Source: Diacronema lutheri (taxonomy: Eukaryota; Haptophyta; Pavlovophyceae; Pavlovales; Pavlovaceae). Taken from it: 64,000 nt of DNA. The notes below the pieces were generated by a model. It was not told the DNA's origin. It saw only the letters and a program-made list of their open reading frames with translations, and searched no databases. The position numbers were made by a program, and so were the translations under genes. Position 1 is the stretch's first letter. The number at the start of each line of letters is the position of its first letter. Where the stretch lies: positions 498,574-562,573 of the forward strand of contig JAGTXO010000024.1 in the NCBI GenBank assembly GCA_019448385.1. The letters run 5' to 3'. This document shows, piece by piece, positions 29,786 to 52,029 of this stretch.

Positions 29786-30211
29786 TTTTTTTTCACACAG
29801 CCTCGTATAGATGGTCAAGCCAAATCCGATCAGGGGCACGATCGAGCGCCCCGAGTGCAGCGCGGGCCATTCGGAAGGACGTCCTTGTGAGGGAGCTCTT
29901 CGCGTTTGGCGAGCGGGGGAGCACGACGCGCAGCGTTGCTGCGGCGGCGTGCGGGCGGCGAGCAGCGGTCGGGCTGCTCGCGACGAGGCCGGAGCAGACG
30001 GCGCCGTGGCCGCCGGCGCAGGTGACGCGCGCCGACGAGCCGTAGCGAGCGTCCGTGATCCGCACGGCGGTTGGAGCGGGCCGGCTGGTGCGGCGCGCTC
30101 GGCCACGGGTGGCGGCGTGCACGGGCGTGCCGAATGCGGTACGCGTCGCCAGCCGCGCGCGACCTGGGCAGAGCCCGCAAAGCGTCGACCGCTGCGCGGC
30201 TCGGCCGTGCG
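29786..30211 (-). other. 3' flank of the Fanzor-like gene; candidate guide-RNA region
   Basis: 426 bp between the IQ-protein stop and the stop of the Fanzor-like frame. It holds an inverted repeat (CGAGCAG 29959-29965 / CTGCTCG 29974-29980). In known TnpB and Fanzor loci the guide (omega) RNA is encoded at or just beyond the 3' end of the nuclease gene, so this is where one would sit. No conserved RNA structure was recognised by eye. Confidence 0.25.
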
Positions 30212-33200
30212 TCAACGCCGGCCGCGCTTCGGCCCGCGCGCGCTGCCGCCGCCGGCACTGGCGCTGGCAGCTCCGCGGGCGGGGGTGCGGGCGCGAGCGC
30301 CGCCGCCGCCACCGCCGCCGCGCCCGCCGCCGTCGTCGCCACCGCCGTCGCCGCCGCCGCCTCCCCCGCCGTCATCGTCGTCGTCGCCGCCGCCGCCTCC
30401 GTCGCCGTCGCCGTCGCCGTCGCCCTCGCCGCCGCCGCCGTCGCCGCTGGCGTCGTCGTCGTCGTCGTCGTCGCCCTCGTCGTCGCCCTCGTCGCCGCCG
30501 TCGCCCTCGTCGTCGCAGTCGTCGCCCTCGCCGTGCACCATGCGCTCCTCACGCTCCCACACCTCGCCGCGCGCCCACCAGGCGAGCACGAGGGCAAAGC
30601 GCTCAGGCGTCGACGTGGTGTCGCGCCCGGCCGCGCGCGCCGCAATGTCGTGCACGTCGTAGAAGATGTTGCGCGCGGCGTTGTAGTCGCGGTGCACGGG
30701 CTTCTTGCCGCCGTTGCACGCCGGGCAGATGACGAGCGCGTGCACCGTGCGCGTGCCGCCCTTTGCCACGGGCAGGCGCGGGTTCTGCGCGAGCTCCGCG
30801 CCGCAGCGCTGCAGCCTGCCGCCCTTGGCGAGCCGCGGCATCGAGCAGTGCATCGACGTGTACGGCTCGGGTACGAAGACGGCCGCGACGCCGCGCCGCC
30901 GCAGCTCGCGCAGCAGCCCCACCTGGAAGGCGGGCGGCGCGCCCTTGGGCTGCGCGCCCTTGTGGTCGTGCAGCCACTTGCCCACGCACACGAGCAGCCG
31001 GTCGCGCGTCACGCCGTCGACGCAGTGCGCCGCGATGAGCGCCTCGGCGACGCGCGCCGCGTTGGACCGCCCGCCGCTGTCGCGCCGCCAGCGCTCCTTG
31101 CGGCGCGCCGGCGCGTCGTACACGTGCTCGGCGGCGCGCTCGCGCACCCGCGCGCTCTCGCGGTGGAAGGCGATGTATTTGCCCGCGTCGAGCACCTTGG
31201 CGCTGTGCGCCTCGCCAAGCCGCGCCTCGTCCGCCTCCACGCTGAACTCCTCGCCGCGCCCGTCGGTGCGCACGCGCCGCCGCGCCGCGTTGGTCTTGGC
31301 CGTCTCGCGCGCAAAGCCCGCGGCGCACGCGCGCGCGCGCTGCGTGAACTGCCGCCAGACGGCCGCCCGCCCGACGTGCGCAGAGTAGGTGGTGATGTTG
31401 CCCATGTTCGGGTCGGCCGCGACGACGACCGCCTCCTCGATGTCGATCGCCCGCCGCAGCTCGGAGCCGAGCGCGACGGCGATGCGCCCGTCCGGCCGGC
31501 GCCAGCGGTGCAGGACGCTCGAGCTGCCGGCCGGCGCCTGCGCCTTCGGCACGAGGACGGTCGCGACGGCGTGCACGGCGACGCCATCCGTCACCACCGA
31601 CGTGACGGGCTGCCGGCCCGGGAGCGGCACGCGCGGCAGCGGCGCGAGGCCCACCCACGAGCGCCGCGCGTGCCACGGCAGATCGGCCGGCGGCCGCTCG
31701 CGCCCGGCGTAGTCGAAGACGCGGTTGGAGATGTCGAAGCGCGTCGCGAAGACCGCGTACCTGACGCGCACGTCGGACATTGGCGGGACAAACGAGCCGC
31801 CTTGAGCGGTCCACTTGATCGGCTCGCCATCGTGGTCGCGCAGGTCCAGCGCCTTGAGCCGCGCGCGCAGCTCCTTGCGCTCGTCGTCCGGGAGCGTCTC
31901 CCAGATGGCGTTCGCGGTGAGGCGCACGTTGCGCGGCACCTGCGCGCAGCGCGCGGCGCGCGAGCGCGCGGGCGCGTGACCAACCTGGCCGCGGGGCGGC
32001 GCGCACGGCGGCGGCGCGCGCGCTTGGGCGCTCGGCGGCGGTAGCGGCAGCCGCGCCTCGCGCGCACATTGTGCGTGCGCAGCGGCGCCACATTATACCG
32101 CGGCGGCCGGTCGGTGAGCTGCGTGTACAGGCGCGCGAGCCGGCAGAGCAGCGCCTGCCCCTTGGCCACGTGCTGCAGGTTGCGGATCTGCACGAGGAAG
32201 TAGCGCGTCGTGTGCCGGTCGTAGTTCCACCTTTTCGTGGGCGCGCACTCGTAGTTGATCTTGTGGAGGACCATGTCGGGCAGGTGGCGGTCGAGCGCGG
32301 CGGGGCAGCCGACGCGCGCGCCCTCCACGTCGCCGCGCAGCAGCCGCTCGCACAGCTCGCGCACGCGCGCGTTTCGCTGCATCTCGGGCAGCGCGACGAG
32401 CGCCTCGTCGCGCTCGACTGCCGCGCGGACGACGTCGCGGAGCAGCCCGTTCACGACGCGCGATGGGTGCATCAGGCACGCGGTGGACACCTGCGTCGCC
32501 TCCGCCTCGAGGATCTCCGTGAGGCCCACCGCGCAGACGGGCTGGACGCCCTCGGCCATCTCGCCGACGGCGCGCGCCGTCGCCGCCTTGGTCTGCGCGG
32601 CGGCTTGCTCGGCGGGCTTGCCTCGGGCCGCTGCACCGTACGTGCTCACGTCCTTGTGCCAGCCGATCGCCGAGAAGATCGCACGGACGGTTCCCTTGTC
32701 CATCGTGGTCGACGTGTGCACGCTTGTCGACGGGCCGCCCGACGCCGCGCCGACGGCCTGCGCGCTCGCCACCGCAGCCTCGTCGCGCACCACCTTGTTG
32801 ATGACGCGGTACGCCTGTGTCGTGAGCCTGTGCACGGCCGCCGCGATGCGCCGCAGCTCCTTCCGCGCACCGGGCTGCGCCGTCACCGCCTGCGGCCCCG
32901 CGTTGAGCGTCGAGCGCTTGACCACGAAGCCCGGGAGCACGCTGCCGCGCGTGCGCGCCGTCGCGCCGCCGGCGGCGCGCGCGCTCGGCGCAGCGGGTTC
33001 GTCCACGCGCGCGCGCTCGACGCCGCGCGCGCGGGGAACGCTCGGCGCGCGCGCGCCCGCGGCGTCGCGCGCGCTCGCGGCAGCACCCGCCGCGGCGCGC
33101 TTGCCCGCGGCGCCCGACACGCCGTGCGCGCGAAGCGGCGCCGACGCCAATGCCGACGCCGCGCCCGCGCCGCCGCTGCCGCTGCCCGATCCGCCCGCGC

Positions 33201-36200
33201 GCCGCTTCTGCTCGTCGCGCGTCTTGCGGAACTGGGCGACGAGGTCGCTGCTCACGTTGGCCTCAGGCTCCCACGTGTCGGCGCTCTCGTCGTAGCCCCG
33301 CCACCTGATCCGGAACTCGAACGTCAACTTCTTGCCCGCCTTGCGGCGCTCGTCGACGACCGCCTCGACCTCGTACGTGCGCGCCTCCTCGTCGACGCTC
33401 GCGCCCGCCGCGCTCGCGCCCGTGTCCGGCCACCCAGCGACCGTGCCGCCCAGCCTCTCGGCGGCCGCGCGCAGCTGCCGCTCGCGCTGGGCGGCCGCGG
33501 CGCCTCGCGCGACCAGCGCGGGCAGCATGCCCGCGCCGCCCGCGAGGCCGTGCGCGCCGACGCTGGCGGTCATCAGCGCGTCGAGGCACGCGAACGTTGC
33601 GAGCGCACGCGCGCCATCGTCGCCGCCGCGCGGCTGCGAGCGCACGACGGGCGATGGCCGCGGCTCCCCCTCGGCCGCGAGCAGCGGCCAGATCGCACTG
33701 GCCAGCGCGACGGCATGCGCGCCGACCGCGACGGCCACGTCCGCGTCGAGCGGCGCAAAGTCGTAGCGCACGAGCGCGGCCGGGCGCGAGTCGTCCGTCG
33801 GCCGGTCGGCGACGAGCAGCCCGACCGGGCGCGGCGGCTCGCCGGACGGCGCGGCGACGGGCACGCAGAGGAGCACGACGAGCAGGCGCGGCGTGCCGCC
33901 GAGCAGCGCGCGCGCGGCATCCGCCCCGTCGGCTCCGCCGCGCGCGGCCGCGGCGAGCAGCTCGGCCGCGCGCGTCGGGCCCAGCGCCGTGCGCGCGTCC
34001 TTGCGCGCGCGTGCGCGCGCCGTGTACGCGGCGCAGGCGTCGTCGAGCGCCGCCGCGCTGGGCGCGGTGCCAGTCGTCGCCCACGCGCGCAGCGCGTCGC
34101 GCACCCGCGTGACGATCGCCTGGTCGACTGCCGCCTCGCCGGCAGCGTGCGCCGGCGCGCACGCCGGCGGTGCGGCGGCAGGCGCGAGCGCGGGCGCGCC
34201 GTCGGCGCCGTCAACGCCGACGGCGCCGTCGGCGCGCCGCCACGCGAGCTTCGCCTCGATCTGCTGCCGGACGGCGTGGCAGTGCCGGTCGATGCCGCGC
34301 GCGTCGTCGAGCGCGGCCAGCGCGTCCTCAGCGGCGGGACGGCCGCTCGCGTCCGCGACGGCCTGCAGGCAGAGCAGCGCGGCCGCACGCGCGTTGCACG
34401 CGCTCTGCGGCTCGGGCGCGAGCGCGAGCTCGAGCTCGAGCGGCGACGCGCCTCGCGCCGCGGCGATCGCGTCCATCAGCACGTCCAACCGCTGCACCAG
34501 CGCCCTGTGCGCGTCGCGCGACGCGCCCGTCGACGGCGCGCGCGAGCGCGTCGCCACGAGCCCGAGCGCGCGCGCCGGCGCGCCCGCCGGCGTGTGCAGC
34601 ACGAGCAGCGCCGCGCCCGCCAAGCTCGCGTTGCGCGTGACGAGCGCGAAGATGCGCGTCGCCTCGTGCGCGCCCACCGACGCCCAGATCGCAGCGCGAT
34701 CGGCGTCCGTCTGCGCGTCGCACAGGTCGCGCACGTCGTCCGGCGCGAGCAGCGCGCCGCCGCCGGCGGAGCGCGCGACGATCGCCCGCGCCTCCGCCAC
34801 GAAGACGGCCTGCGGCAGGTCGGCGTGGCGCGCGTCGACGATGGCGCGCGTCGCGTGCACGCCGAGCTCCACGCCGCGGTAGAAGGCGCGCGCGTTGGCC
34901 GCGCGCGCGTGCGCCGGCCGTCCGTCCGCGTTGCGCCTCGCGCGCGCCTGCTTGCTCGTGCGCGCGAGGCCGTCGCGTGGCGGTGGCGGCAGCGTGGCGA
35001 GGAAGCGCGCGGCGGGCGGCGGCGCGCGCACGCCGCGCTGCCGCCGTGCGATGGCCGCGAGCCGCCGGCCCGCCGCGCTGCCGCCCGCGCCGACGTGCTG
35101 CCGGCGGCCGAGCGCCGCCGGTGGCGGCGGCGGCGGCGGCGCGGCGGCGGGCGGCGGCGCGACGGCGGGCGGCGGCGCGGCGGCGGGCGGCGGCGCGGCG
35201 GTGGGCGGCGGCGCGGCGGCGGGCGGCAGCGGCGGCGGCGCGCCGGCGACGGCAGCACCAGTCGGCTTGTCCGCCCACGCACCCGAGACGCTGTCCCAGG
35301 CCTTGCCCGGTGGCGCGCGCCCACGCGGCCGCGGGTGGCGGGCTCGAGCGGCGGGGGGCGGGCGGCCGGCGCGCCAGTCGAAGACAGGTGCAACCGTGGC
35401 GGCAGGCGCCGAGTGCCGCGCGTCGGTCACAGAGCGCGTGGTGCGCGCGGCGACCGTCGCGCGCATGGCGGGCGGGCGGTGAGCAGCGCCCGCCGGCGCG
35501 CCGGCGGGCGCGGCAGCCGGCGCGCCGGCGGGCGCGGCCGCCTCGAGCCCGGCGGAGGCGCCGCGCTTGCGCTTGCGCGTGCCGCCGCGCGTGCGCCTGC
35601 GCGCGCGCCCGCCGCGCGCCCGTTCGGCCTGCGCGTCGCCAGCCGCGTCGCCGGCCGCGTCGCCGCGCCGCACGTAGACGACCGCGAACGCCTCCTCGCC
35701 GGTCCCGTCGACGCCGCCGCGCGCGCGGCGCAGGACCGACCGCCACTGCAGCCGCCGCGCGCGGCCGGGCTCGCACGCAAACCAGCGCCCACCGCGCCTG
35801 ACGACGGCCACAAAGTCGTCGTCGCGCCGCCCGCGCCGGCGCGTGCGCAGCAGCACGCACTGCACGTCGAGCCAGCCCTCGTGCCAGTCGGCCGTGCTGG
35901 GGGCGACGCGAATCGACTGCGGGAGCTCGACGCCAAAGCCGGCGAGCCGCACGATGTGCGCGACGATGACGCTCGAAATGGCGGGGGCGCTCGACGGGTC
36001 GCCCGCTGCAGCGAGCACCGCCCCGCCCCAGTGCTCACGCGTGACGCAATCCGCGTCCTCGACGTGCACGTGCGCCACGCTCGCGCCGAGCTGGTGCAGC
36101 AACGCGCAGATGTCGGCGTCGACCGTCCTCTCCTCCTCGGCCGCCTCGGCCGTGCCGCGGGCGGCGGCGTCGCCTGCCGGCTGCCCGAGGTACGCGATCG

Positions 36201-39200
36201 CCCGCTCGACGGCCGCGCGCTCCGCACGCGCTGCGCTGTCGATCGCCGCATTGCCGACGGGCGCGCGCAGCGCCGCGATCGCGTCTTGCAACGCCGTCGC
36301 GTCGCCCGTCGCCGCCGTCGCCGCCACCGCCGCCGCGCTCGCGGTGCCGTGCGCGACGGCGTGCAGCGCGGCGGCGCGCGCGGCGGGGATGCGCCCGTCC
36401 AGCGCGAGCACGAGCGGCGGCCCGGCCGGCGTCTGCTGCCGCCGGTGCCGCCGGCTCGCAGCCGGGTGGTCGGCGCGCGCGCGCTCGAGCCGCGCGCGCC
36501 GCTCGACGACGCGCGCCCAGAAGGCCTGCACCCTCGGCTGCGCGAATGCAAGCCAGCCGGCGCCGCGCGTCACGACGTGCACGACGATCCGGTCCTCGTG
36601 CCTGAGGTACTGCACGTAGAGCGCTTTGCGCACGCCGAGGACGTGCATGCCGAGCTGCAGCTGATCGCGGTGCGGCTGCGGCGGCCCGTCCTCGTGCGCC
36701 TTGGCGTCCGCCTTGGTGAGCGTCTTCACCTCGACGAGGACCTGCTCGTTGTCTTCGGGGAGGATGGCGAGCCCGTCCGGCGAGAAGGCGAACGGCGCGC
36801 TCTTGTCGTGCGGGTCCGCACGCACCATCGGCAGGTTGCACACGACGGTGATGCCGTACGCGGCCGCCAGCTTGCGCAGCGCGACGGCCTCGCCGAGGAT
36901 GCCCGCGGTCGTCGCCTTGGTCCGCACCTCGCGCCGCCGCCGGTGCACGTACTCGTCGGTGAGCGTCTCGTGCGCGACGCCGGCGTTGTCGTTCACGACG
37001 TCGCCAACCTTGCTGCCCGTGACCTCCTCCCATCGCTCGTCGTGCCAGCGCGGGCTGCGCTGCGCGGGCGCGCCCGCGCCGACGGCGTCGAGCACGCGGC
37101 GCAGCGCTGTGCCGTCGGGCGCAGCAGGCACGCGCGCGCGGTCCTGGGCCTCGCGAGCGTCGAGGACGCAGCCCGTAGTGGAATCTTGGGGTGGGTCGAG
37201 CTTGCTCGCCTCGCCGTAGCGGCTCTCCAGCTGGCGCGGTGCGTCGGCAGGGCCGCCGTCCGTGCGCGCACCCGACGCGCCCGCCAGTGCACGGGGCGCA
37301 GCGTCCGAGGCGCCCGCCGCGCCCGCGCCGCCGCCAATCGCGCCAGCGCACGCGCGCGCCGCGACCTGCGGACGGCCAGCCGCAGGGACCTCGTCCGCTC
37401 GGCCGGCCGCTGCGTCGGCCGTCCGCTTGGCCACCTCGCGCGCGTCTCCGAGCGCGAGCGTGGCTGGCGCCGTCGAGCTCCCGTGGCGTTTGTTCCAAAA
37501 CTCGAGCAGCCCGCCAAGGAAGGGCGTGCCCGTCGGGCGGTCCTCGGGCACCTCCGCCAGGATCGCGTCGACGCGCAGCGCGGCCGCCACATCGCAAAAC
37601 GCGCGCGCGGCGCGCGCCATCCGCTCGGCGCGCGCGCCGCCGTCGTCCGCCGCGCGGCGGATGGCGTGGCTCACGTGCGCGACGCGGAGCGAGACGACGG
37701 CGTGCGCCGGCGCGTCGGCGCCCGTGCCGAGCGTGTGCCGCCGGATGGCCAGCTGCCCATCGCCCATGCGCGGCGGGAGCGACGCGCACGCCGCGACGGT
37801 CGTCTTGCCGGCCGCGCTGTCGCACAGCCAGCTCGCCTCGCCGCCGCCCGCAAACTCAAAGGTCGCGAAGCCCTCGCGGCCGAAAAGCGCGACGAAGTGG
37901 TCGAGCACCGCCTTGTTGATCGCGCGCGCCGCCGGCCGCGTCGATGCGCCGCGGGCAGCGCCACCCGCCGCGCCGCGCGCATCGCTGCACGTCGCAGGGC
38001 AGGTGCAGCCGGACGCGCGCACGCCGTCCGACCGCGTCCGCGGCAGCTCGAGCTCGCGCACCTTGGGGCAGAACCAGAGCGGGTTGGACGCCTCGAGGCA
38101 CAGCACGACGAGCCGCCCGTCCGTGCCGGCCAGCGCGCGCGCGTCGCGCAGCAGCTCGACGGCGAGCTCGGACGTCGCCGCGTGCACCGCCGGCTCGCCC
38201 GTCGCGCGGTCGGGCGGGAAGAGGCCGCCGCCGACGAGCGGGCTGGGGCAGCGGCCGAGCATCACGAGCAGCGGCGGCGGCGGCGTCTGCGGCGCCTGCT
38301 GCCCGACCGCAGCCGCCGTCAGCCCGGCCAGGTCGGAGCTCGTGCGGAGGGCCTTGAGCGCGACGCGCGAGCCGGTGCCCGCCTGCTCGGAAAACGTGGC
38401 GAGCATGGCGCACGTGCTCGCCCTCGCGCCGCACTGCCAGCTGACGCGCGCGAGGAGGCCTTCCAGCGTGTCGTTTTCGCGCGGCCGCGTGACCGCGTCG
38501 AGCGCCGCCGAGTCGAGCTGGAGGCTGCCGGGCGTGACGCACAGCACCGCCTCGTGGTAGGCGCGCAGCAGCTCCCTCGGCAGCTGCTCGGCGGGCGTCG
38601 CCGCCTGCCCGCCCACCCACCGTGCACCGTGGCCGCCGTCGCCCGCGCCCGCGAGCCGCACCGCCGGCCCGCCCGTGATCGCCGAGGTCGGTGGCGTGCC
38701 GAGCGCGTCGACGAGCGCGCGCACGGGCGCGACACGCCTGCGCGCAGCGTCCGCGCCGACGGCGAGCGCGGCGATCCGAGCGCCCTCCCATGCGCGCTCC
38801 CTCGCGTCGTCCCGCGCGGCCGCCGGCGCGGCGCCCGGCCGCGCGCCGGGCGGCACCGCGCACGCCGCCGCGACGACCTCCGCGCGCGCGCCGGCGGCGT
38901 CGGGCGCGTGCAGCTGCGCGAGCGCGCCAGAGAGCGCGGCGGCCGAGCGGTAGCGGCCGTGCGCCGCGACGAGCGCGTAGAGCACGCGCAGCGCGGCCAC
39001 GCCCGCCTGGTCGGGCGCGTCGTCAGCGATGCGCTCGACCTCCCACGTGCGCGTGGGCGGCGGGCTGCCGTCGGCCGGGTCCGGACGCAGCGCCCACGCG
39101 CGCTCGACGATCGCGTTGAACACGCCGTGCGCGGCGCCCTCGTCAAACTCGGCGGCGCCCGCCGCGTGCGCGCACCACCCGTGCACGCGCGACGTGGGCG

Positions 39201-40756
39201 CGTCCACGGCGCGCTGCACGACGAGCACCGCCGGCCGGTCGACGCAGCCGAGGCTCACCGCCGCGTGCTTGCCCTCGAGCAGCGCCGCCGCCGCAGCCTC
39301 GACCAAGGCGTCACCAGGCGCGTCGCCGACGACGACGGCACAGCCGTCGCCGTACTCGGCCTGCATCGCGGCGACGCACGACGCGACAAAGTCGCCGCCC
39401 GCGGCCGCCGCGTGTCGCGCCGCCAGCATCCGGCGCGCGATGGCAAGCCAGACGTACTCGGCCGGCGCGCGCGCGGCGCGCGCGCGAGGCGCGCCGGCCG
39501 CGCCGCGTGCGCCAGCGCGTGCGCCTCCAGCGGCCGCAACGGCCGAGGCAGCTGGAGCGGCGGTGAGCGTGCGCCGCGCGCGCTTCGCCGGCCGCGTGAT
39601 GGGCGATGCACCCGCCGTCGCCCCGCCCGCAGCAGCCGGTGCGGCCGCCACAGCGCCCGCCGCAACGCCACTCGTCACGACGCCCGTGGCGGGCGGCGCG
39701 GCGGCGGACGCGGCCGCCTCGACGGGCGTCGCGCAACTACCGCCAGCGGTCGCGGACGCGCCCGGCGACGCGTCGGCGAGGAGGTGGCGCAGCACGCCGC
39801 GCGCGAGCGCGACTCGCACGGCGAGCGTCAGCGCGCGCAGGCGGTCGGAAGGCGAGGCGTCGCGCTCGGCGTCGGCGGACGTGGCGGCAGCAGGCGAGGC
39901 GGCGGGCGGCGCGGCGGCGGGCTGGGCGGCCGCCGGCGCAACCTCGTCGGCCTTGGCCAGCCAGACGAGCCCGGCGACTGCGAGCACGACGCTGTACGCG
40001 CCGACATCGTCACCCGCAACGCGCGCCAGCCGGGCGTGGGCGTCGGCCTCGGACACGGCGACGCGGAAGAGCACGTCGTCGCGGGCAGCTTGCTCGGCAA
40101 ACTGACGCAGCTGCTTGGCCATCGTCACGCCGGCGACGGACGCCTCGCCCGCCTCTGCCTCGACCTGCTCGTCCTGGCCGATGGCGGACGCGCCGGCCTC
40201 GGCGCCAGCGTCGAGTGTCCGGCGGCGCTCGAGGGCGAAGCCACGCACACAGACGCTCTGGAGGCCGCCGAGCGCGCCCGCCTTCTCGTGCAGCGCGCAC
40301 GACAGCTCGACCACCGAGTCCACGCGCCTCGCGGCGGCGCCCCCCCGCTCGCCGCGCGTGGCCGCGCGCACGACGAACACCGTGAATTGCGCGCGCTTTG
40401 CCGCGCGCGCCGACGCGCACGCGTGCTTCAGGAGCCGGCAAAGCGCGGGCCTTTGCGCCGCTGCGCCCCGCGTGCACAGCAGCAGTTGGCCGCGCTCGTC
40501 GCCCAGCTCCTGCTCGATGGCGGCCTCGAGCGCGTCGTCCGTCAAATCGCCGTGCTCCGTCGAGGCGAGCGCGCGCGCAGCCGCGAGCGCCAGCTCGCCT
40601 GCGCCCGCGCGCCGCCGGCGGCGCGCACCGGCGGGCGCGTGCGGCGCCGACGCGTGTGACGACGCCGCCGCGTCCGCGCGCGCACACGCGGCGCGCAACG
40701 CCTCACGCGCCGAGGCGGCCGCGCGCGCCCTGGGCGCGAGCTTCAAGAACGTGCGC

Positions 40757-40804
<48 letters not shown>

Positions 40805-43800
40805 TCGTCCTCGTCGCCGGCCGGCGGCGGCGGTGGCGGCGGTGGCGGCGCGGCCACGGCGGCGGCAGCAGCGGCGGCGGCGGCGGTGGCGGCGGCGGTG
40901 ACGCCAGCGGCGGCCTTGGCGCCGCGCGTCTGCGGCGGCGTTTCGGCGCGATCGGGGCTGCCCCCGCCACGCACCGCGCTCGTGACCGCGCAGACGCCGC
41001 CCGGCGCACGATCGCTGGCCGCGCCGGTCAGCGCGACGCGGAGGCGCTCGCCGACAGCGTACATGTCCGCCACGCTGAACGTGCGCGGCGCGGACGAGCA
41101 GCCCGCCGCGGCGAGCGCGTCGTTGAGCGCGCCCACTATCGCGAGGCCGCACGTCGCGCCACGCTGCGCCGCCTCGTTGAGCAGCAGCGCGCGGCGCACG
41201 CGCGAAATGTCGAGACCCGCCGCGTGCAGCGTGGCAGTTATCGCCTTGGCGAGCATGAGCGCCTGCCTGCAGGGCGACGCGAGCGTGTCGACGAGCACCG
41301 CGTCGTAGCGATGCTCGCCCGCGCGCGCGACGCGCACAAGGCGCAACGCGGTGAAATGGCCGGAGGCGAGCTGCGCGCCGTCGTCACCGCCCGCGCCGCC
41401 GCGCTCGTCCGACGGGCTCCACACGCCGATGACAGCCTGCGTTGTCGCCTCGCTGCGCAGGCGGTGCAGCAGCGCGGCGCGCTCGGCGCCGTCCTGGAAC
41501 ACCGCGGGTTGCGCGGCGAGCGGCACGTGGCAGACATGCCCGCCGCCGGCCTGCCCGTGCACGCGCAGCACGACCTCGCAGCACGCGTCGACGGTTGAGG
41601 CGAGCATGTCGCCGCTGGCGATGCGCTCCACCTCTGCCTGCGGGAGGCCGGCGCTCGCGGCGGCGGAGGCCAGCCGGCGCGCAGCCGCGTCGCCCGCCCA
41701 CGCAAGCAGCGCCGAGTTGGCGGGTTGGAGGGGAAGCTCAAGGGCGGCTGGTTCGGTGGCGGTAGCCTCGTTGGCAACGGGCACGTTGGCGGTGCGCACG
41801 TTGGCGGCGGGCGCGGCGGCGATGGCTGGTGGGGCGGAAGACACGCCCGCGGCGGCAGGCGCGGACGCGACAGCGGCAGCGACTAGTGGGGCGGGGAAAA
41901 TGCCGTCGGTGGCTGGCGCGGAGGCGAGTGCAGGAGCAACTAGTGGGGCGGGAAAATCGGCGGCAGGCGCGAAGGCGGATGCAGCAGCGGCTAGTGCGGC
42001 GGGGAAAACACCGTCGGCGGCAGGCGCGAAGGCGGATGCAGGAGCGCCCAGCGGGGCGCAGAAAACACCGTCGGCGGCAGGCGCGAAGGCGACAGCAGCA
42101 GTGGCCAGTGGAGCGGAGGCGCAGGGCCACGCGCGCGCCAGCCGTGCAAGCCCAAGCCGCGCGCGAGCGACGCACGCGCCGATGGCCGAGGCGGCGGCGC
42201 AGGCCACGACGTGGCCTGGCACCGGTGTGGCCAGCCGCTCGCGGGTGTGCACGTCGAGCCGCGCCCCACGCCAAGAGCGGCGGCGCGCTGAACGGAGGCG
42301 CGCGACCCCGATCGATCCGCCCGCGCACGCGCGCGCCGGCTCAGTGTGGCCAACGCGCGCCGCTATGCAAGGCGCGCGCGCGATAACGGCGGCTGTCGGC
42401 CGTGGCGTGCGCGTGGCGGCGCCGCGGCGACGGGCGCGGCACACGAGCCGCTCGGGCGCGCCGCCGCCGCGCGGCACGATGTCGAGCAGCACGGTCACGC
42501 CGCGCGCGCGCGCGACCGCCGTGCACGCGAGCCGCACGGGCAGCGGCGGCCCGTCCGGGCGCGCGAGCGCCGCCACCTCGGCGTCGGTGAGGCTGTGCAG
42601 CTCGCGGCGCGCGCGCGCGAACGCGGCGATGTCCGCGCGCAGCTCCGCGTCCGTGCCGAGCGCGGCACGCGCGTGCACGGGGAGCGACGCGCGCAGCGCG
42701 TGGAGCACGCCGCCGCGCGCGCCGCGCGGCGCCGGCGCGCGATCGCGCTCAGCGCGCGCGGCGCGCGTGAGCTCGCGCACCGCGCGCGCGAGATTGCGCC
42801 GCGCGGCCGCGACGGGAGGGCTAGGTGCGCGCGCGCGCCGGTTGTAGCGCGGCCGCGCCGAGTCGAGGGGCGGCGGACGCGGTGCGTACGCCGCGGCGCG
42901 GCCCGCGCGCCAAAAGGCCGGCGGCGGGCGCAGCTCCGTCGCGTCGACCGCGGCCGCGAGCGCGCCGAGCGCGGCGTCGCTGTCGCCCGCCGCGTCGGCC
43001 GCGTCGACGAGCACGAAGAGCGCGCCGAGCGCGCGCGACGCGGCCGCCTGCGCGGCGGTGGGGCGGGCGCAGGCAGCGACGCATGCGGCCGCCATGCCGC
43101 GCGCCGCGGCGAACGCCGGTGACGTGACGGCCGCGCCGATGGCAACGGCGGCGGCGGCGACGGTCGAGGCGGCAGCGCCGGCGATGGAGGTGGCAGCGGC
43201 GGCGGCGCTTGCCATCGCGCGGCGCGCGAGACGCGAGGCGCCACCGACCGCCGCCGCCGCAGCGCGCGCTGCGCGCGCGCCGGTGGCGCGCATCGTCGCC
43301 GCGCCAGGCGCCGCCGCGCCGACGCCGCCGGCGCCCGCGCCGTCGCCGCTCTCGGCCGTGCAGGGCTCCGATGGCGAACCCGGCGTGCGCTGGCGCGTGA
43401 TGCGCGCGCCGAGGCGCGCGCTCCGCGCCGCGCGGCCGGCGACGTCGAGGAAGCGCCGTGCGCGCGCCGCGCGTAGGCCACGCGCGCGCGGCGGCGCACC
43501 GACAGGCGCCGAGCGCCGCGGCGCGCACGCCGGCGCGTCGCTGTCGGGTTGCGCAGCGCGCGCGCGGGAACTCGGCGCGGCGTGTGCGGGCGGCGGGCGC
43601 GCGCCCGCGCGGCGCAGAGGCGCGAGGCGCCGGCCGCAGACGAGGCGTGTGCGCAACCAGGACGGCGAGGGCCGCAGGGCGCCGTCGACGTCGCGCATCG
43701 GCGGGCCGCGAGCCCGCCGCGCAGCCGTGCGGCGCGCGCGAGGCGCTCGGCGGCGCGCGCGCCGCACGGCGCGCGCGGCGGCGCGCACGCCAGCGACGGC

Positions 43801-46800
43801 TGCGGCCACGCCGCGCGCCAACACGACCGCGGCGTGCGCCATCGCACCGAGCACGGCGCGTGGCGCGCCGAGCAAGCGCAGCAAGCGCGACGCCGTCGCG
43901 CGCGCCGGCGCACCGTGTGCAGGGGCCTCGCCAGCGCCAGCACCGACGCCGCCATCGCCGCAGCCGCAGGTGGCGTCGCCGCCGCCGCAGGCGTCGCGAC
44001 GGACGCCGCCGCCGCCGAAACAATCGCCGCACACGTCGCCGCCGACGTTGCCACCCCAGCCGCCGTTGCGTGCGCAGGTGGCTGCGGCGCGTGCGTGCGG
44101 GAGGCGTGCCGTGCGGCGCGCATCACACGGGCTGCGCGACGCGAGCGACGCCGCCGGGGTCCCCGCTGCGCCAGGCGCGCCGTGCGCGCCAGCCTCGCCG
44201 GCCTCGCCGGCGCGCGGTCGCGCGCTCGCCTCGACGTGGCCGCCTCCGCCGCCATCGCCGCCGTCGAACCGGGCGGCGGAGGGCTGCCGCTCGAACCGCT
44301 CGTCGGCGTCGGCCGCCACCGCCGCCTCGCGCTCCGCCGCCGCGGCGGCCGCCGTACGCGCGTGGCGGAGCGCGCGGCCGCCGTCCGCTGCGCGGCGTGG
44401 CGGCGCGGGCGCCGCCTTCGGCGCGCGCGGCCCCTCGGCGCGCTCGCGGAGCACGGCGAGCGGCGTGCCCGTGGCGACGCTCGTGCAGACGCGCCGCAAG
44501 GCGGCGCTTACGCACGCGTGGACGACGCGCGCCGTCCGCTTGTCGGCGGCGCGCGCGGCGCGGCGCGCGGCCTTGGCGGCGGCCTTTTTGGCGCGCCTCT
44601 GCTCCGCCTGCTCCGACAGCGCGCGCGCCTGGCGCTCGGCTGCGAGCGCGTCCTCGGGCGAAACGGTCGGCCTCGGCGGCCGCGCGCGCGCGCTGCGACG
44701 CTGCGCGCTGCGGCGGTCGGACGGCGGCTGCCGCGGCGGCGAGGACGGCGAGCGCGAGCTCGGCGTGGGCGACCAATCGCCGCTGACGGTTGCGAGCGGC
44801 GCAAACGGGTTGTCGTCCCCGCGCCCCGCGGCGTGCGACAGTGCACGCGGCGTCGGGCGCCGGCCGACCGCTGGCGGGCCCCACTCGGACGGCGGCTCCG
44901 AGGGCGAGCGCGCCGTCGGCGCCACGCGTTGCGCGGCCGGCGGCGCCTCCCGGTCCAGCGCCGCCTGCTCTCTCGCCGCGGCCTGCTCGTCACCCTCCGG
45001 CACGCCACGCGGCGCGAGCACCGCGGTGGCGCAGCGCGTCGCGTTGAGCAACGCCGCCTCCATCTGCCGCACGCTGGCCTTGGCGCACGCCACACCCTGT
45101 CTCGCCCGGCGCAGCGCCTCGTGCGCGCGGCGCACATCCGCGTCGGCATCTTCGCGCATGCCAAAGTGCGCCTGTTGCAGCCGCAGGTCCGCAGGGCGCC
45201 CCTGCGCGCGAGGGGCACGGGCGCGGCGGCGCGCGGGTGACGGAGCTGGCGCGCCGTTCTGCGCTGCGCGCACGCCAATCGACGGGCGCGCGCGCGGCGG
45301 GGCGCGCGCGCGCGCGCGCGCGCGCGCTGCCTACCCAGCCGCCGGCCGGCTCGCGCGAGCGCGCCAGCTGCTCCGCCGCCTCGGCGTCGAGCACGCGCTG
45401 CTGCGCCTCCTCCTCGCCCAGTGCAGCGAGGTGCAGCCGGCGGGCTGCCTTGCGGCAGTTGCCCTCCGCCTTGCCCACGGCCTTGCGCGCCGCGTCGACG
45501 GGGTCGTCGTTGGCTCTGGCGCGCCTGCGCTTGCCCTTGTCGGCGGGCGGCGGCTCGGCGCGCTGCGGCGCGCCGAGCGCGTCGTCGGCTCCGCGCGCGG
45601 CCGCCCGCGGGCGGCGGGCCCCAAAGAGCGCACCGGTCGCCGTGCGCGCCGCGCAAGCAACGACCAGCGCTGACACGCCGGCGAAGACCGCACCGCCCAG
45701 CGCCACGGTTGCCACGATGCGCAGCGTCCCGTGCGCAGGCCGCGCTGCCTCCGCCGCCGCTTTGGCGGCCTCGCGCGCGCGCGCATCGGCGGCTCTCATC
45801 TCGTGCAGCAGCCCGGCCGCGCCGCTCGCGCCGTCGCGGCCGCGCGCGAGCTCGCACAGCACCGCCGCCGCGCGCCGCGTGGGCTCGCGCGCGAGCAGCT
45901 GCGCGCCGCCGTCGGGGCGCAGCTTCTCAACGAACTCGGCAAACGTCGCGTCGCGCCAGATGGACATGCGGAAGGCCCTGTGCACCGCCCCCTCTTGCTC
46001 GCGCATCCGCCGTGCCGCCCGCCTGCCGTCGCGCGCGTGCGCGTGCGCGGCCGCGTCGAATCCCGCGACGCCGCGCTGCGCGTCGCGCGCGTCCGACGAC
46101 GGCGCCGCCGCGCTGCCCGCCAAGGGCGCCGCAGCGGCGACGCGCGCGTGCGGAGCGACGGGATCGCCGGCGGCCGGCGGCTCGGCGCGCTGCGGCGTGC
46201 CGTTTGCTCCGCGCGCGGCCGTCCCGGGGGAGATGGCCGCGATGGCGCCGCCAGCCGCGCCGTGCGCCAGCCACGCGCATAGGCTGCCGACGAGCTCGCC
46301 GAAACCCCCGACGGTCGCCGCGGCGGCGAGTGCGCCGGGCTTGCCGGCCGACAGCGGCTCGCGAGCGTCGTCGTCGCAGCCGCCGGCACCCGTCTTGGCG
46401 AGTGCGTCGCGCTCGCCCTCGACGCCCGCCACGACCGCCGCCCCTCCGTCGTCCGCCGCGCCGGCCGCGCGCGCGGCCGGGCGCAGAGGAGGCGTGCCGG
46501 TGCAGCCGTCGCCGCTCGTCTTCGCCGTTTCCTCCACCTTGATCGCTTCGTCGCCACCTGCGCCATCTCCGACGCCGGGGCCCTTGGTCACGCTTGCCGC
46601 CATGCGCGCCGTGCCCGCCGGCCAGCCCGCCGACTGCTCGAGCGCGGCGGCGAGCGGCGCGACGCGCGCCGACTCGGGCGCGCTCTCGTCATCGGGCTCG
46701 GGCGCGTTGTGCAGGCGCGCGAGCGCGCGCTCGACGGCCGCGGCGCCACTGCCGGGGGCGCGGCTCGCCGCGCGCACCGCGCGCCGCCAGGCCGGCGCGA

Positions 46801-49012
46801 ACATGAGCGCCGACTCGAGCGCCGCGAGCGCGCGCGCCTCGCGCGCGTCGCTCGCGCCGAGGCGCGGCGGCACGCGCGCGGCGCCGCGCGGCGCGGTGCC
46901 TCGGAAGCGTGGGCTCAGCGTGTAGGCGAGGTGCTGCGGCACGCCGCGCGCCTCCGCGCGCGCGCGTCCGTCCTCGACCTCGCGCCGCGCCTTCGCGATC
47001 GCCGGCGTGGCGCGCGCGAGCCAGTCGGGGTCGGCGGGCAGGTGGATCACGACGAGAATCGGCGCCCAGTCCAGCCGCGGGTTCTTGTGACGGTCGGGCA
47101 CGACCCACACGAGCAGCACCGTGCCCTCCGCGCCGCACGCCGCCTCGTAGATCCTGGGCTGCGAGCGCCAATCGGGCCTGACGCGCAGCGCCCGCGCGTG
47201 GTCGATGGCGGCGGCGCGGTCGCCATTGAAGTGAACCGTCGTCACCTCGCCGTTGACGGACCGGCCGGACCGCCAGCAGAACACCGCGTCCGCCGACCCG
47301 CCGGCGATGGCCGCGAGCGATTCGGGCGCGGCGAGCCGCGGCAAGCCCTCGAAGGCGGCAAAGTCCTCGTGCGCATTGTACACGCCGCCCCAGCCGTCGT
47401 GCGCGTACGCGCGCGCGGCCGCTCGTACCGCGCGCGGCTGGTTCTCCACGCCCGACGTCATGTGCCGTGTCGTCCCCGCGAAGCCGGGCTCGCCCAGCTC
47501 GGCCCGCACGACGGTACCGTACCCCGCGCCCTGCGTCGGGGCGGCGAGGTGGTGCATGCCCGCGCCGGTCACGCCCTCCGTGCGCTGCCGCGTGACGATC
47601 GTGCCCGTCGCGTGCGCGAAAAGCGTGTCGACCACGGCGGGCGCGCGCCCGCTGTTCGCCCGCAGCCGCGCCCTACCCGCTTTTAGCTGCTCGGGGTCCT
47701 TGGCGTCGTACACGCGCGCGTCCGCGTCGCCCTCATCAGGCGCAGTGTAGACGCAGCGGCGTTCGAGCGGCGCCGAGCCACCGCCGTCCGCCGCCGCCGG
47801 CGAGGTTGGCGCCGCGCCCGCCGCCACCGCGCTCGTCGCCGCCGTGCCCGTCGCCACCGCCGCAGCCGCCGCGCCCGCGAGGTCGTCGTCCCCGTCCTCC
47901 GCGCCCTCCCCGTCGTCAGCGGTGGTGGCGTCGCCATCGTCCCCGTCGCCCTCGCCCCCGCCGAGGAGGCTGAATGGTCGGGGCCCCCACGCCGAGGCGG
48001 CGCGCCGCTGCGGCGCACGCGGCGGTGGCGCTCGCGACGGCGGCCTTGGCGCCGCCGCGCCGCGCGGCCTGGCCGCCGTCGACAGCGCGCGGCCTGCAGC
48101 GCCCGTGAGCGCGTCGAGCGCGGCCGTGCGTGCGATGCGGTCGTCGGGCGCGCGCAGCGCCGCCTCGACGGCCTGCAGCAGCCCGTCGGGCGCGGATCCG
48201 CCGACACTGGCATCGCACGCCTCGGCGAGCCGCGCGGCCTCGGCGAGCCGCGCGGCCTCGCGGGTGAACGGGCCGAAGCGCCTGGCGCGGTCGCCGAGCA
48301 GAGCGCCGATGGCGGCGCGGAGCGTGCGCGCGCGGGTCTCCTCGTACGCGGCCGTCGTGAGGCGCGCGAGGCGCGCGTCCAAAGCCTTCTTGATGTCGAC
48401 AAGGACATTCGCGCGGCGGCCGTAGAGCGTCGATGCGCTCGCCACGACCTCGGCCGCGACTGTTGCCGCGGCGAAGCAACACGCGGCCCCACTCTGCGGG
48501 GGCGCCTTGAAGGCATCGATGGGCGGCGCTGTTCTGCCGATGCGCTGCGCAAGCTTCTTGATGAGCACGCCGGCCGCCGTGGCGTACGCCGATTCGCCGT
48601 TGCCCAAGGTGCGCGAATCGGCGAGCAGGGCGAGCGCGGCGCCGGGCGGCGCGCCGCGCTGCGCGGGCGGCGCGAGGAGCAGGTACGCCGCCGTCCAGTG
48701 CGCGAGGCCGCTGGACGCGCGGAGGCAGAACGGTAGCACGACCACGAGCACCTGCCCAAACCGGTCCGCATCCGCGCATGCTTTGCCCAGGTTGCGCAGC
48801 GCCACCTTGAGCGCATGCTGCGAGCACCCCGTGTCGCCCACCCTAACCCTGCTCGTGCCGAAATCCGCGTAACGCAGCAGGGCGATGAGGCAAGTGGATG
48901 GGACCACGTGGGGGTGGGTATCTCCCGGCGACAGAATGGTGCTGAGGGCCAGCGAGAAACTGTCCGAGCCGCCCCGCCCGCCGGGCAAAGCGTCCTTCAC
49001 GGAGTCCTCCAT
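30212..49012 (-). CDS. Giant mobile-element polyprotein: Ulp1-like x2, YqaJ, chromodomain, Fanzor
   Basis: Proposed exons are 49012-45335, 45201-32068 and 31939-30212; both introns are GT-AG and phase 0, giving about 6,179 residues. Intron 1 (donor TGG|GTAGGC, acceptor CGCGCAG) joins a helical region split between two frames. Intron 2 (donor AAT|GTGCGC, acceptor GCGCAG) sits inside the nuclease. Domains: Ulp1-like protease (about 50-190), a hydrophobic segment near 1100, coiled coil (1170-1260), long Ala/Arg-rich linkers, second Ulp1-like protease (about 2500-2580), YqaJ exonuclease (about 3936-4124), Pro/Ala linkers, chromodomain (about 5164-5224), and a TnpB/Fanzor-like nuclease (about 5310-6095) with a Gly/Asp tail. 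The whole frame lacks stops, but parts may be separate genes in the same frame, and undetected introns are likely. The start is the only ATG near 49012 in frame. Its job is inferred: mobilisation, with proteolytic self-processing possible. Confidence 0.55.
30400..32950 (-). other. Domain: TnpB/Fanzor-like RuvC nuclease
   Basis: Begins near VLPGFVVKRSTLNAGP and is crossed by the 31940-32067 intron. Catalytic blocks are RuvC-I VVVAADPNMGNITT (Asp about 5780), RuvC-II VFVPEPYTSMHCS (Glu about 5962) and RuvC-III HRDYNAARNIFYD (Asp about 6022). Between II and III there is a Cys set (MHC, QRCGAEL, CPAC) as in the TnpB zinc ribbon. The spacing (182 and 60 residues) fits Fanzor proteins, eukaryotic RNA-guided DNA endonucleases related to TnpB and Cas12. 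All three acidic residues are intact. Confidence 0.72.
33210..33390 (-). other. Domain: chromodomain before the nuclease
   Basis: TYEVEAVVDERRKAGKK and FEFRIRWRGYDESADTWEPE give the aromatic cage and WRGY..S..TWEPE signature of chromodomains, which bind methylated histone tails. In LTR retrotransposons such a module directs integration to chromatin. Confidence 0.8.
36510..37075 (-). other. Domain: YqaJ/lambda-type exonuclease
   Basis: Reads as a full YqaJ-like recombinase nuclease: RSPRWHDERWEEVTGSKVGD, KATTAGILGEAVALRKLA (Glu), FSPDGLAILPEDNEQ (Asp), LVEVKTLTK (Glu-x-Lys), then HRDQLQLGMHVLGVRKALYV. These supply the metal-binding PD-(D/E)xK core. Family members degrade one DNA strand from ends to promote strand annealing, as in phages and some eukaryotic transposons. 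Confidence 0.75.
41120..41400 (-). other. Domain: Ulp1-like protease, second copy
   Basis: The same residue pattern recurs: SGHFTALRL (His), 23 residues later VLVDTL (Asp), then AAQRGATCGLAIVGAL (Gln-x4-Cys-Gly). The His is followed by Phe instead of Trp. Spacing fits C48 proteases. No fold prediction was possible. Confidence 0.45.
41770..42125 (-). repeat. Degenerate in-frame repeats in the giant frame
   Basis: Five or six diverged copies of a roughly 60-bp unit encode variants of SAFAPAADGVFPAPL. Copies differ by substitutions and short deletions, all preserving frame, which suggests this linker is translated or recently was. Confidence 0.55.
48440..48760 (-). other. Domain: Ulp1/SENP-like (C48) protease, first copy
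   Basis: The residues follow the C48 order: His-Trp (GLAHWTAAYLLL, His about 105), Asp-Ser (ALLADSRTLG), then Gln-x4-Cys (PPQSGAACCF, Cys about 178). The His-Trp pair is typical of Ulp1 enzymes, which cleave SUMO-type fusions; mobile elements often carry them. Confidence 0.5.
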
Positions 49013-49534
49013 CTGCAGACTGTGGGCACGTCAGTGTCCGGATGGCGGCCCGGATGATACTTGGGAGAATTTACATGATGCCCTGGAGAATGCCCCGCTC
49101 TCCCACAACCAGGACCCGCCAGCGCGCCGAGCCTACTCGTTTGCCCGCGCCGCCTCTCTTTGCGCGCCCGAGCGCGGCCTCCGAGCGCGGCCAACGTCCT
49201 CCGGGGGCGTGCATCGTGGCTGCTCGGAGGGGCTGCGACGCGGCGAAAGCTCGCTGCGCGGCCGCAACGTGAGCGCGCGCGCGCGGCCGCGCGCCGGCCT
49301 GCGCTGCTCTGCACGGCCGCGCGCCGGCCTGCGCAGCCTCGTCGCGCAGCGTGAGCGCGAGCGCGCGCGCGGTGAGCTCGGCGGATGGGTGCGCGGCGGC
49401 GTTGGCGGCGGGTGCGGCGGCAGGCTGGGCGGCGGGTTTGGACGGAGAGTGTCGGGGAAGAACGGGGCGCATCCTGGTTGGGAGTTGGACGGCGCCCACC
49501 ACGCGCTGGCGGATCCTGGTTGCCACCACCACCA

Positions 49535-49536
<2 letters not shown>
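49013..49536. other. 5' flank of the giant gene, non-coding
   Basis: 524 bp with no supported gene. It contains a repeated CGGCCGCGCGCCGGCCTGCG pair near 49290-49340. It probably includes the promoter or left end of the element. Frames here are shadows. Confidence 0.35.

Positions 49537-49606
<70 letters not shown>
49537..49606. repeat. Poly-C tract (70 C)
   Basis: The longest homopolymer in the window: an unbroken run of 70 C ending before GGAGACGAGG. Its exact length is probably unreliable in any assembly. Confidence 0.85.
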
Positions 49607-49608
<2 letters not shown>

Positions 49609-50970
49609 AGACGAGGACCAGGGGCATGGCCGACTCGCTGCGCCGCACAGCGCGCGGCGCGCGGCATGCTGCGCGACCTCAGGCACATCCAGCCGCGCTC
49701 CGCGCACGCAACGCGCGCAATGCCGCGTTGCACTGCAGATGTGCACGTGCGGCTCTCACGCGCACTGTGTTGCACGAACGGCATCACGCCACCGAGCTGC
49801 GTCCGGACCACGCGCCGCGCGCAGGCGACCACACAGGGGCGCGCCGCGCCGCGCGTGCGCGCCCTCGCAACCGTTGCAGCACGCTCTGCCTTGCACTGCG
49901 CCGAGCCGCCGCGCGCTGTGCGCGTGCATGCAGGGCGCACGCGTGCGACGAAGCGCGCGCGCGGCGAGGCGCGCGGGCGGCTCGCTGCGCGGGCGGCAAC
50001 GCGCCAAGCTGCGCCCAGACCAGGCGCGCGCCCGCGAGTGCCACCGGGACGCACTGCCCCCGCCGGGGTCGCCGCGCGCTCTGTGTGTGCGCTCGCGCGC
50101 TGCGAGCGCGGCGGAACGTTCGTGCATGGCGCGAAGAGCGCGGCACCCGAAGACGGCTGCCCCGAGCCCGCGCCGGGTGGCAGCGAGCGGCGGCACCTCC
50201 TCGGCGAGCCCGCCCCGCGCCTTCCCCTCCACGTGGCGTTTTGAGGCAGACGGACACGCGCCCACACTGCGACTGGGCACGCTGCTCGAGGCAGACACGC
50301 ACCCAACGCGCGCGCACCACGCGCCCGCGTCGGCGGGCCGGTGTGAACGAGCGAGAGCTCGGTGTCGCCAACGGGGGCACGGGCGCGAGTTCGGTCCGCC
50401 TCTCGACGGACGCAGGCGACGCTGCCGGGAACTTCCCCGACGCCTGCACATCCAGGGCTTCGAGGTACAGAGCTGGGCAACAGTGCCGCTCGTCACCGAT
50501 GAGGCGGCCAAGCTTGCTATCCTTGCTGCCCTCGGCTCCACCAAACAGCCGGGCGACCCAACGGTTCGTGATCGCCTGGCCGCCAGGTGCGAACCGCGTT
50601 CATGCAGGCGCTTCGCCCGCATTCTCCGCCCCGCTGCGGACGTCCGCCTGCCGGCCGCGAACACGGCCGGTGCGCGCTGCCGCCTGGCCCAACACGAAAA
50701 CGCGCCCGCCCCCGAGGCCGCAGGTCCTACCTGCCCAAGCGCAGCCCAACGGCACGCAGACAGCCCGCCTTGGCAACCGACTCGTGCGCGAGCGCTCCGC
50801 CCTCCACAAGAGCCTGCCCCACGCCACCGCCGACGCGGAGCCAGCGCAGCCGACGCCCCTCCGCGACGCACGCGCCGCAAGGCGCAAGGGCCCCGGCGAG
50901 ACGGCGTCAACCAAGCCCGCCGCTGGCACAGCGCCGGCACCCGGAGCCCACCCCAAGCCCGCACGCCTCG

Positions 50971-51001
<31 letters not shown>

Positions 51002-51480
51002 ATCGGCGGACCGATTGCGTTTTGGTGCGCCAGGCTCAAAGCGCCATCGCAGTGGCGGGCCCGCAGACGCAGACGCTGACATGCCCAACGCTGGGCACTG
51101 AGGCCGCAGGCCGGCCCTCCTGGACCTGGCGGGCGAGCTGCCCGCGCAGCGGCCACGCGAGCCTCGCACTGACCGTGGCGGTCGCTGCCACCGTGATAGC
51201 TGCGGGTGCGGCGGCCTTGGCCCCAACCCCATCATCCGTCTTCATCCCCGCCCTGCTCGCGCTCGCGGCCTACGTCGGCAATCCCTGCACCGGGATCCGC
51301 CCCGCGAAGTCCACACAAGACTTATCCGTGCTGCACGCCAGCCGCGCGCGCCGACGCGCGCCGCTCCCACACGCTCACCTCCGTTTCCGCGGGCGGCCCA
51401 ACGCGCCCCCCCCCCCCCCCCCCCCACCCCCCACCCCCCCCCCCCCCCCCCCCCGGCAGGCGGCCATCGAGCCGCATTAG
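49607..51480 (+). other. Degenerate element-derived DNA, no intact gene
   Basis: No complete gene is supported. A protein-like stretch (GFEVQSWATVPLVTDEAAKL) at about 50457-50590 ends without continuation. Poly-C runs at 50971-51000, 51406-51425 and 51434-51454 resemble those in introns elsewhere here, so a decayed or unrecognised plus-strand gene is possible. Confidence 0.3.
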
Positions 51481-51489
51481 CACACCCGC

Positions 51490-51860: not shown

Positions 51861-51993
51861 CTGGAGCCATCCAAGCAGGGCTCTGCCTGCTCGGCTTCCG
51901 CAAGGCAATTTGGGCCGCGGACAGCGGGCAGCGGACGGCGTGCGCGTGCGAGGTGCGAAAGGAGGAAGAAGGTAGGGAGAGTGGTGTGTGTGT

Positions 51994-52024
<31 letters not shown>
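51994..52024. repeat. Poly-G tract (31 G)
   Basis: On the minus strand this is a poly-C run about 45 nt inside a possible intron that starts with GTGAGTGCG (near 52071), as the 3' part of the USP-like gene would require. Confidence 0.75.

Positions 52025-52029
<5 letters not shown>

Follow-up and report, generated by a model that had tools for sequence, protein, structure and literature searches.

A giant Fanzor-bearing reading frame at the core of a recently spread DNA transposon in the haptophyte Diacronema lutheri

We have analyzed a stretch of 64,000 nucleotides from the haptophyte alga Diacronema lutheri (hereafter the window; C74:498574-562573) that carries a predicted gene of 6,179 codons. 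The gene forms the core of a DNA transposon that has amplified recently and has fixed ends; about 200 copies are present, belonging to several recurring size classes. Judged by sequence matches, one frame encodes a RecE/YqaJ exonuclease, a chromodomain and a Fanzor nuclease, and a PIF1-type helicase lies upstream of it. The genome searched comprises 43,492,796 bases in 103 contigs; copies are labelled by the contigs of this same genome (C1-C103), and fetched loci carry L-numbers. The available part of the genome paper for strain NIVA-4/92 reports an assembly of 43,502,671 bp in 103 contigs with 73.25% GC and 22.9% repeats, LTR and LINE elements making up 36.5% of the masked bases (PMC8379373); neither "transpos" nor "helitron" occurs in that paper.

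Structure of the giant gene

The original prediction of three stop-free minus-strand segments (44990-49030, 31591-45330 and 30212-32092) joined by two phase-0 GT-AG introns was confirmed at the same positions. From the methionine at 49012 to the stop at 30212, the three inferred exons encode 1226 + 4378 + 575 = 6,179 residues:

45335..49012, minus strand: exon 1 of the giant gene, 1226 residues, start methionine at 49012
45202..45334, minus strand: predicted intron 1, 133 nt, GT..AG, phase 0; ends and length the same in the window, C4 and C10
32068..45201, minus strand: exon 2 of the giant gene, 4,378 codons; evidence from the open frame, codon use and the copies
31940..32067, minus strand: predicted intron 2, 128 nt, GT..AG, phase 0; ends and length the same in 8 of 8 copies
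30212..31939, minus strand: exon 3, the Fanzor's C-terminal half with RuvC and C4 zinc finger, and a tail rich in Gly and Asp; evidence from PF07282 and alignment

The GC content at codon positions 1, 2 and 3 is 0.79, 0.64 and 0.90 in exon 1, 0.81, 0.66 and 0.91 in exon 2, and 0.78, 0.57 and 0.95 in exon 3. A codon score, which was trained on exon 2 and is hence circular within that exon, switches frame at both introns as predicted. This change of frame, together with a GC content of 0.90-0.95 at third positions as against 0.57-0.66 at second positions, indicates that the segments are coding sequence. We infer that both introns are spliced.

A protein-database search with a cut-out of exon 1 found no match. 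The YqaJ cut-out matched the EukProt "Pavlova lutheri" entry P0007 at 99% over 25% of the query; 425 residues of this entry agree with exon 2 at 99.3%, in the frame predicted here. The protein query P0003 gave three database matches, of which the real ones are P0004 (94%) and P0005 (44%, BLASTP; its source tag, lgn, presumably denotes Logan). The other, the named D. lutheri protein P0006, looks like a low-complexity match. Locus L024 was considered as a second Fanzor architecture and rejected, since its match to exon 1 is a 90%-identical DNA fragment of the element described here.

Domains of the predicted protein

Four stretches of exons 1 and 2 were assigned a domain or a motif:

48478..48700, minus strand: first protease-like motif (H..D..Q..C), in exon 1; motif order only
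41151..41358, minus strand: second protease-like motif (H..D..Q..C), in exon 2; motif order only
36496..37071, minus strand: YqaJ / RecE-like PD-(D/E)XK exonuclease domain; phrog_434, TIGR03033 and genome search
33223..33375, minus strand: chromodomain; PF00385, E=5.5e-12, and solved chromodomains, best E=3.6e-9

The YqaJ exonuclease, which had been predicted, is supported by the RecE-like PHROG family phrog_434 (E=3.3e-16), with additional matches to TIGR03033 of NCBIfam (E=8.3e-6) and to Pfam (E=0.018) that both fall under the cut-offs of the models. Its translation contains SPDG and EVK, which we take to be the catalytic E, D and E-x-K motifs of the YqaJ/lambda-exonuclease type. The predicted chromodomain holds on the strength of its Pfam match.

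The TNB profile PF07282 matches the Fanzor part at E=2.3e-6 (28.1 bits, cut-off 26.3), and the guided_TnpB model of NCBI reaches only 13.7 bits there, against a cut-off of 100. The Fanzor/TnpB motif, given in the available part of its source as D-X(125-275)-[TS][TS]XX-[C4 zinc finger]-X(5-50)-RD (PMC3627910), is found here as D227, 184 residues, T412-S413-M414-H415, C416/C430/C456/C459, 8 residues and R468-D469. D227, T412-S413, the four cysteines, R468-D469 and E409 are invariant in all three aligned sequences, one of which is a relative of 49% identity; this relative lacks the N of the D-x-N motif. The RuvC acidic residues D227, E409 and D469 are present, and profile and alignment thus support the earlier proposal of a Fanzor-like nuclease at the end of the frame with its three acidic residues intact. 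The metal-binding D383, N385, E541 and D606 of SpuFz1, as given in the available part of Saito 2023 (PMC10432273), correspond to D227, N229, E409 and D469. Unlike SpuFz1, the Fanzor described here ends a giant frame, and RNA guiding is predicted only.

Two Ulp1 proteases had also been proposed, and these were not confirmed: both stretches have the order H..D..Q..C, and Pfam C48 gave no match to the cut-outs at E<=10 (the HMMER filters drop most matches above 0.1). A genome search with Peptidase_C48 gave nine matches, none of them in the window, and a PDB sequence search with the protease-like cut-outs found no protease. AlphaFold models built without an alignment had pLDDT values of 42.5 and 43.7 for the first and second stretch, too low for either fold to be judged, and a Foldseek search with the second model returned nothing at E<=0.001.

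Helicase and ubiquitin hydrolase-like stretch

Two further features were identified upstream of the giant gene:

55122..56165, minus strand: PIF1-type helicase, in three frames in the window copy; PF05970, E=1.2e-17 and 9.7e-24 in two of the frames
52515..53212, minus strand: ubiquitin-hydrolase (UCH/USP)-like stretch between the helicase and the giant gene; PF00443

Further PIF1 motifs are found in the third helicase frame of the window copy. In the window, C4 and C10 alike, 242 nt separate the Walker-A motif from DEAPM, with a shift of one base between their frames, and the frame changes at the same spot in all three copies read (for example at L029 8719-8961), which may reflect either a programmed frameshift or shared decay. 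In a genome search with the PIF1 model (150 scored of 414 candidates), 148 of the 150 scored matches cover the model partly and two cover most of it in one frame; one of these two lies at the distance from a YqaJ match that is seen in the copies. About 300 codons with a strong coding score and no profile match stand before the helicase in C4; we guess them to be a viral SSB-like domain. The window copy lacks most of the N-terminal part of the helicase gene, and the size classes of 21.5 and 29 kb have a PIF1 match of the window's kind (a frame of 463 codons). The UCH-like stretch matches PF00443 at E=4.3e-5 (23.7 bits, cut-off 23.9) and contains what we take to be Cys-box-like and His-box-like motifs, in different frames.

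Ends, copy number and size classes of the element

A search of the genome for other copies, proposed at the outset as a means of finding the termini, located them at 29,805 (3') and 58,925 (5') of the window. The original prediction of a mobile element stands, as the sequence is repeated and has fixed ends; the 18.8 kb allotted to it was too small, and the PIF1-type helicase and the UCH-like stretch had been missed. The element as a whole comprises the following:

29805..58925, minus strand: whole mobile element, 29.1-kb size class; ends common to other copies
58857..58925, minus strand: 5' terminus, starting CTATATA-GGCGCGGTCC; an 18-bp perfect palindrome lies about 47 nt inside
29805..29874, minus strand: 3' terminus, ending ...GACCATCTATAC; a GC-rich imperfect palindrome lies about 28 nt inside
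57340..57885, plus strand: opposite-strand open frame of 182 codons; no match to Pfam or PHROG

The fixed ends read CTATATA-GGCGCGG ... CCATCTATAC. The same 3' end is found in C4, C10, C13, C30, C5, C39 and C3 and in the contig-end copies C1 and C12; variants read CTATAA in C6 and CTAAC in C9, and C36 ends 12 nt early. Nine of the 11 fetched 3' ends fall within 29,804-29,817; the other two lie at 29,818 and 29,997. The 5' start is common to the six copies compared (the window, C4, C3, C5, C9 and C39). A prediction of where the 5' end of C30 would lie (L052) did not hold, the C30 terminus being some 600 bases away.

Exact termini number 202 at the 3' end and 190 at the 5' end, the latter being exact matches to a 28-nt core; reversed-pattern controls gave 0. 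When the first 100 listed places of each terminus type were used for pairing, 66 of the 3' ends had a same-strand 5' end no more than 40 kb away. These 66 pairs measure 31.0 kb (28), 21.5 kb (13), 29.0-29.5 kb (8), 26.0-27.0 kb (8) and other sizes (9), so that the element spans 29.1 kb in the window copy and about 31 kb in the commonest class. The other 34 of the 100 lacked a partner, which may reflect truncation, an altered terminus or a contig end. About 200 copies with a mean of about 28 kb, taken from the 66 pairs, would amount to some 12% of the genome, a rough estimate that is probably on the high side because of these 34 unpaired ends.

The main alignments of the fetched copies to the window are 96-99% identical, with some 5' pieces at 87-96%. 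With the TNB profile, 150 of 306 candidates were scored and 148 matched; an identical E-value (7.1e-6) is shared by 109 of these, and the copies fetched from this group match the window. When 700 bases from the N-terminal part of the C10 helicase gene were used as the query, all 40 places scored (of 204 candidates, and counting the origin of the query) matched at 100% over 699-700 bases, which indicates that the spread was recent.

Other Fanzor-type families are found at L009-L028 on other contigs; 13 of these loci (L010-L022) share an identical TNB score of 43.9 bits, above that of the family in the window. The 5' part of the element contains a fold-back with two 90-base arms of 93% identity (window 56741-57060), and some 870 bases at L029 6268-7139 are nearly their own reverse complement (91.8%). 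Folding of both element ends as single-stranded DNA was no better than for shuffles, and RNA folding of the last 200 nt gave a modest signal (z -2.14).

Conservation of the reading frame among copies

Three copies (the window, C4 and C10) were compared along the entire gene and five (C1, C6, C12, C26 and C29) along its last 9.6 kb. None of the eight has an in-frame stop, against an expectation of 3.89 nonsense changes from 321 differing alleles. Nine of the 12 distinct exon indels are of whole codons, and neighbouring indels of 29 and 4 nt add up to 33; a single 1-nt deletion, near the C-terminus of the giant gene, occurs in the C12 copy only. The introns keep their GT..AG ends and their length in all copies compared (three for intron 1, eight for intron 2) and have no indels, and thus offer no contrast with the indels of the exons. 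The dN/dS ratio between copies is 0.71-1.38, and 0.92-0.95 over the whole gene. With a ratio of about 0.9, selection after insertion looks weak, and the open frame therefore mainly reflects descent from working copies.

In the YqaJ genome search (110 scored of 225 candidates), all 110 matches are free of stops; 80 of them, the window's included, lie in frames of at least 4,000 codons and 95 in frames of at least 3,000. A TNB match follows on the same strand, 5-7 kb downstream, in 65 of the 110. The 45 without such a match are divided between C70-C103 (31) and C1-C69 (14); on C70-C103 no match at the family's usual TNB score is found among the matches listed (150 scored of 306 candidates).

Insertion sites and genome setting

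Both flanks were read for a small sample of five copies (the window, C4, C5, C9 and C39), and none of the five shows, by eye, an abutting target-site duplication of 2 bases or more. The C3 copy lies within a known repeat and is consistent with clean insertion, judged from one 3' base. The flanks of C39 (L059 and L060) have a similar motif of about 20 nt on both sides, about 10 and 30-50 bases away from the element, which may be a local repeat or the relic of a longer duplication. Copies of the element also lie in or near members of a short repeat family ending GCCGTTAGTAT (L058, L047, L023, L033 and L011).

Beyond the element, the window contains frames with ordinary domains: an MscS-type channel, a SET domain, a DEAD-box helicase and a ubiquitin hydrolase. 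Tandem arrays of 36- and 37-base units occupy 2707-3871 and 3828-4086, in a C-skewed stretch. The repeats at 60134-60481 and 60769-61318 are 97.7% and 98.2% identical to parts of L011 and L024, two loci that also contain other Fanzor matches. Contigs C1, C3, C5, C6, C8, C12 and C14 start or stop at the 3' end of the element, which indicates that the element limits the contiguity of the assembly. An association with telomeres, considered for the copies at contig starts, was dropped because the contigs break precisely at the 3' end of the element, as assemblies do at repeats.

Mode of transposition

Our preferred reading, which we consider reasonably probable, is that of a giant Fanzor-bearing DNA transposon moving by a Helitron-like rolling-circle or replicative route. 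This route is suggested by the PIF1 helicase and by the lack of abutting target-site duplications in the copies read. The HUH nuclease for it would either have escaped recognition or be provided in trans. Histone-methylated chromatin would be the target to which the chromodomain directs the protein, the protease-like modules may cut the polyprotein, and single strands would be produced and processed by the exonuclease and helicase. A guide RNA for the Fanzor could come from the 407 bases between the stop codon and the 3' end of the element. The Fanzor would then cleave sites without the element, and repair would copy the element back into them; such cutting of empty sites, with restoration by repair, has been proposed for TnpB. 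Action on empty sites, processing by the proteases and targeting to chromatin are suggested by analogy with the respective families.

A PIF1-type helicase is expected of a Helitron and is present here (PF05970), but in split frames. PF14214 (Helitron_like_N, the HUH Rep) has one match in the genome, elsewhere, and none fused to the helicase of the element. This lone match (L050; C63:34500-37500) is read in more than one frame, and its locus has no similarity to four pieces of one complete copy (best E 0.5). Helitron1 ends are 5'-TC...CTRR-3'. Helitron2 ends are asymmetric inverted repeats, according to the available part of PMC3627910. The element, with CTATATA...CTATAC, has neither kind, asymmetric repeats having been sought by eye. 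As to a subterminal hairpin at the 3' end, the element has an imperfect palindrome about 28 nt inside this end, with folding not above that of shuffles. As the Rep and the canonical ends were not found, we do not file the element as a Helitron; it resembles Helitrons in its helicase and its clean insertion. Several other observations count against a Helitron-like reading: the termini show no strong 3' bias (202 versus 190), and the helicase is in split frames in 3 of 3 copies and partial in 148 of 150 PIF1 matches. The C39 flank motif, the dN/dS of about 0.9, the non-significant DNA folding of the ends and the modest RNA folding also weigh against it.

No transposase family was found in the frames scanned with Pfam, and exonuclease, PIF1-type helicase and Fanzor occur together in one element, whose giant gene stays open while the PIF1 matches are mostly partial. 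These observations would fit an element moved by recombination without a transposase of its own, in which the Fanzor breaks a site, YqaJ/RecE resects it and a helper with PIF1 drives break-induced copying. We regard this as unlikely: the flanks of the insertions do not resemble one another, a fact for which homology-directed copying offers no explanation; a transposase could be hidden in the long polyprotein stretches without an assigned domain, the scan having covered part of the frames; and the domain that precedes the helicase matches no profile. It is likewise doubtful, indeed quite improbable, that an element without a transposase has spread by RNA-guided cutting and recombination through a single giant protein with a chromodomain to target chromatin, a Fanzor to make the cut and a RecE-type exonuclease to resect the strands; in that case DNA repair, perhaps as PIF1-driven break-induced copying, would insert the new copies.

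The split frames of the helicase in all three copies read, the loss of its N-terminal part from the window copy, the similar PIF1 matches of the 21.5- and 29-kb classes and the single Helitron_like_N match elsewhere could also point to a non-autonomous passenger, moved in trans by another Helitron or a recombinase of the genome. It is hard to see, however, why a passenger should retain an open frame of 6,179 codons, and two of the 150 PIF1 matches cover the model in one frame, one of them spaced from YqaJ like the copies; the lone Helitron_like_N locus is itself in more than one frame, with introns possible. We give this origin, too, only a small chance.

Fanzor genes also occur in large DNA viruses, according to the available part of PMC3627910, and YqaJ is mentioned in the available parts of giant-virus papers. 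Yet the remnant of an integrated large DNA virus is a very improbable source for this element: the frames scanned contain no capsid, packaging or DNA polymerase family, the ends are fixed and the sizes recur, and no relative turned up in three scans of viral contigs, a method that depends on short exact peptide matches. Finally, despite an opposite-strand frame of 2,912 codons in the same window, chance open frames in very GC-rich DNA can be rejected, as can a host gene, on the grounds of codon-position GC, domain matches, conservation of the frame across copies, copy number and fixed ends.

Comparison with known elements

The closest likeness is to CRe-1, CRe-2 and CRe-3 of Chlamydomonas reinhardtii, Helitron2 elements that bear Fanzor1 (Bao and Jurka 2013, PMC3627910). 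According to the available part of that paper, they share with the present element an intron-split Fanzor gene in an algal mobile element and palindromic stretches near both ends, and their copies with complete 5' ends have no target-site duplications, as none were seen here. Unlike in CRe-1/2/3, the Fanzor here closes a frame of 6,179 codons that also encodes an exonuclease and a chromodomain, the ends differ and no link to a Rep-helicase was found; the CRe Fanzor Helitrons are described there as 5'-truncated, whereas we see no strong bias towards 5' truncation. The words "Ulp1", "protease", "chromodomain" and "YqaJ" are absent from the text of that paper.

Large Helitrons reach up to 39 kb in maize and, in the available part of the source (PMC6431247), share with the present element a PIF1-type helicase (Hel) and large size; some carry accessory cysteine proteases (OTU), which we count as a likeness. 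YqaJ, chromodomain and Fanzor are not named among their accessory domains in that part. In contrast to these Helitrons, no Rep was found here, the helicase is in split frames and the ends are non-canonical.

Our literature search found no paper naming both Fanzor and YqaJ. The available parts of PMC6338049 and PMC11071296 describe no Fanzor fusion of this kind, and "Ulp1", "chromodomain", "YqaJ" and "haptophy" are absent from PMC10711439 and PMC10432273. The suggestion that the element represents a new class is unproven, as it depends on the transposition enzyme, which was not found in the frames scanned. We regard the element as a variant, since Fanzors in algal elements of the Helitron type are already known (PMC3627910, available part).

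Implications

To our knowledge, what Fanzors do for the elements that carry them is still an open question. Here a cultured alga harbours about 200 very similar copies of an element whose Fanzor is encoded in one open frame together with an exonuclease and a chromodomain. This family makes it testable whether the Fanzor is needed for spread or for retention of the element, and whether it is released from the polyprotein.
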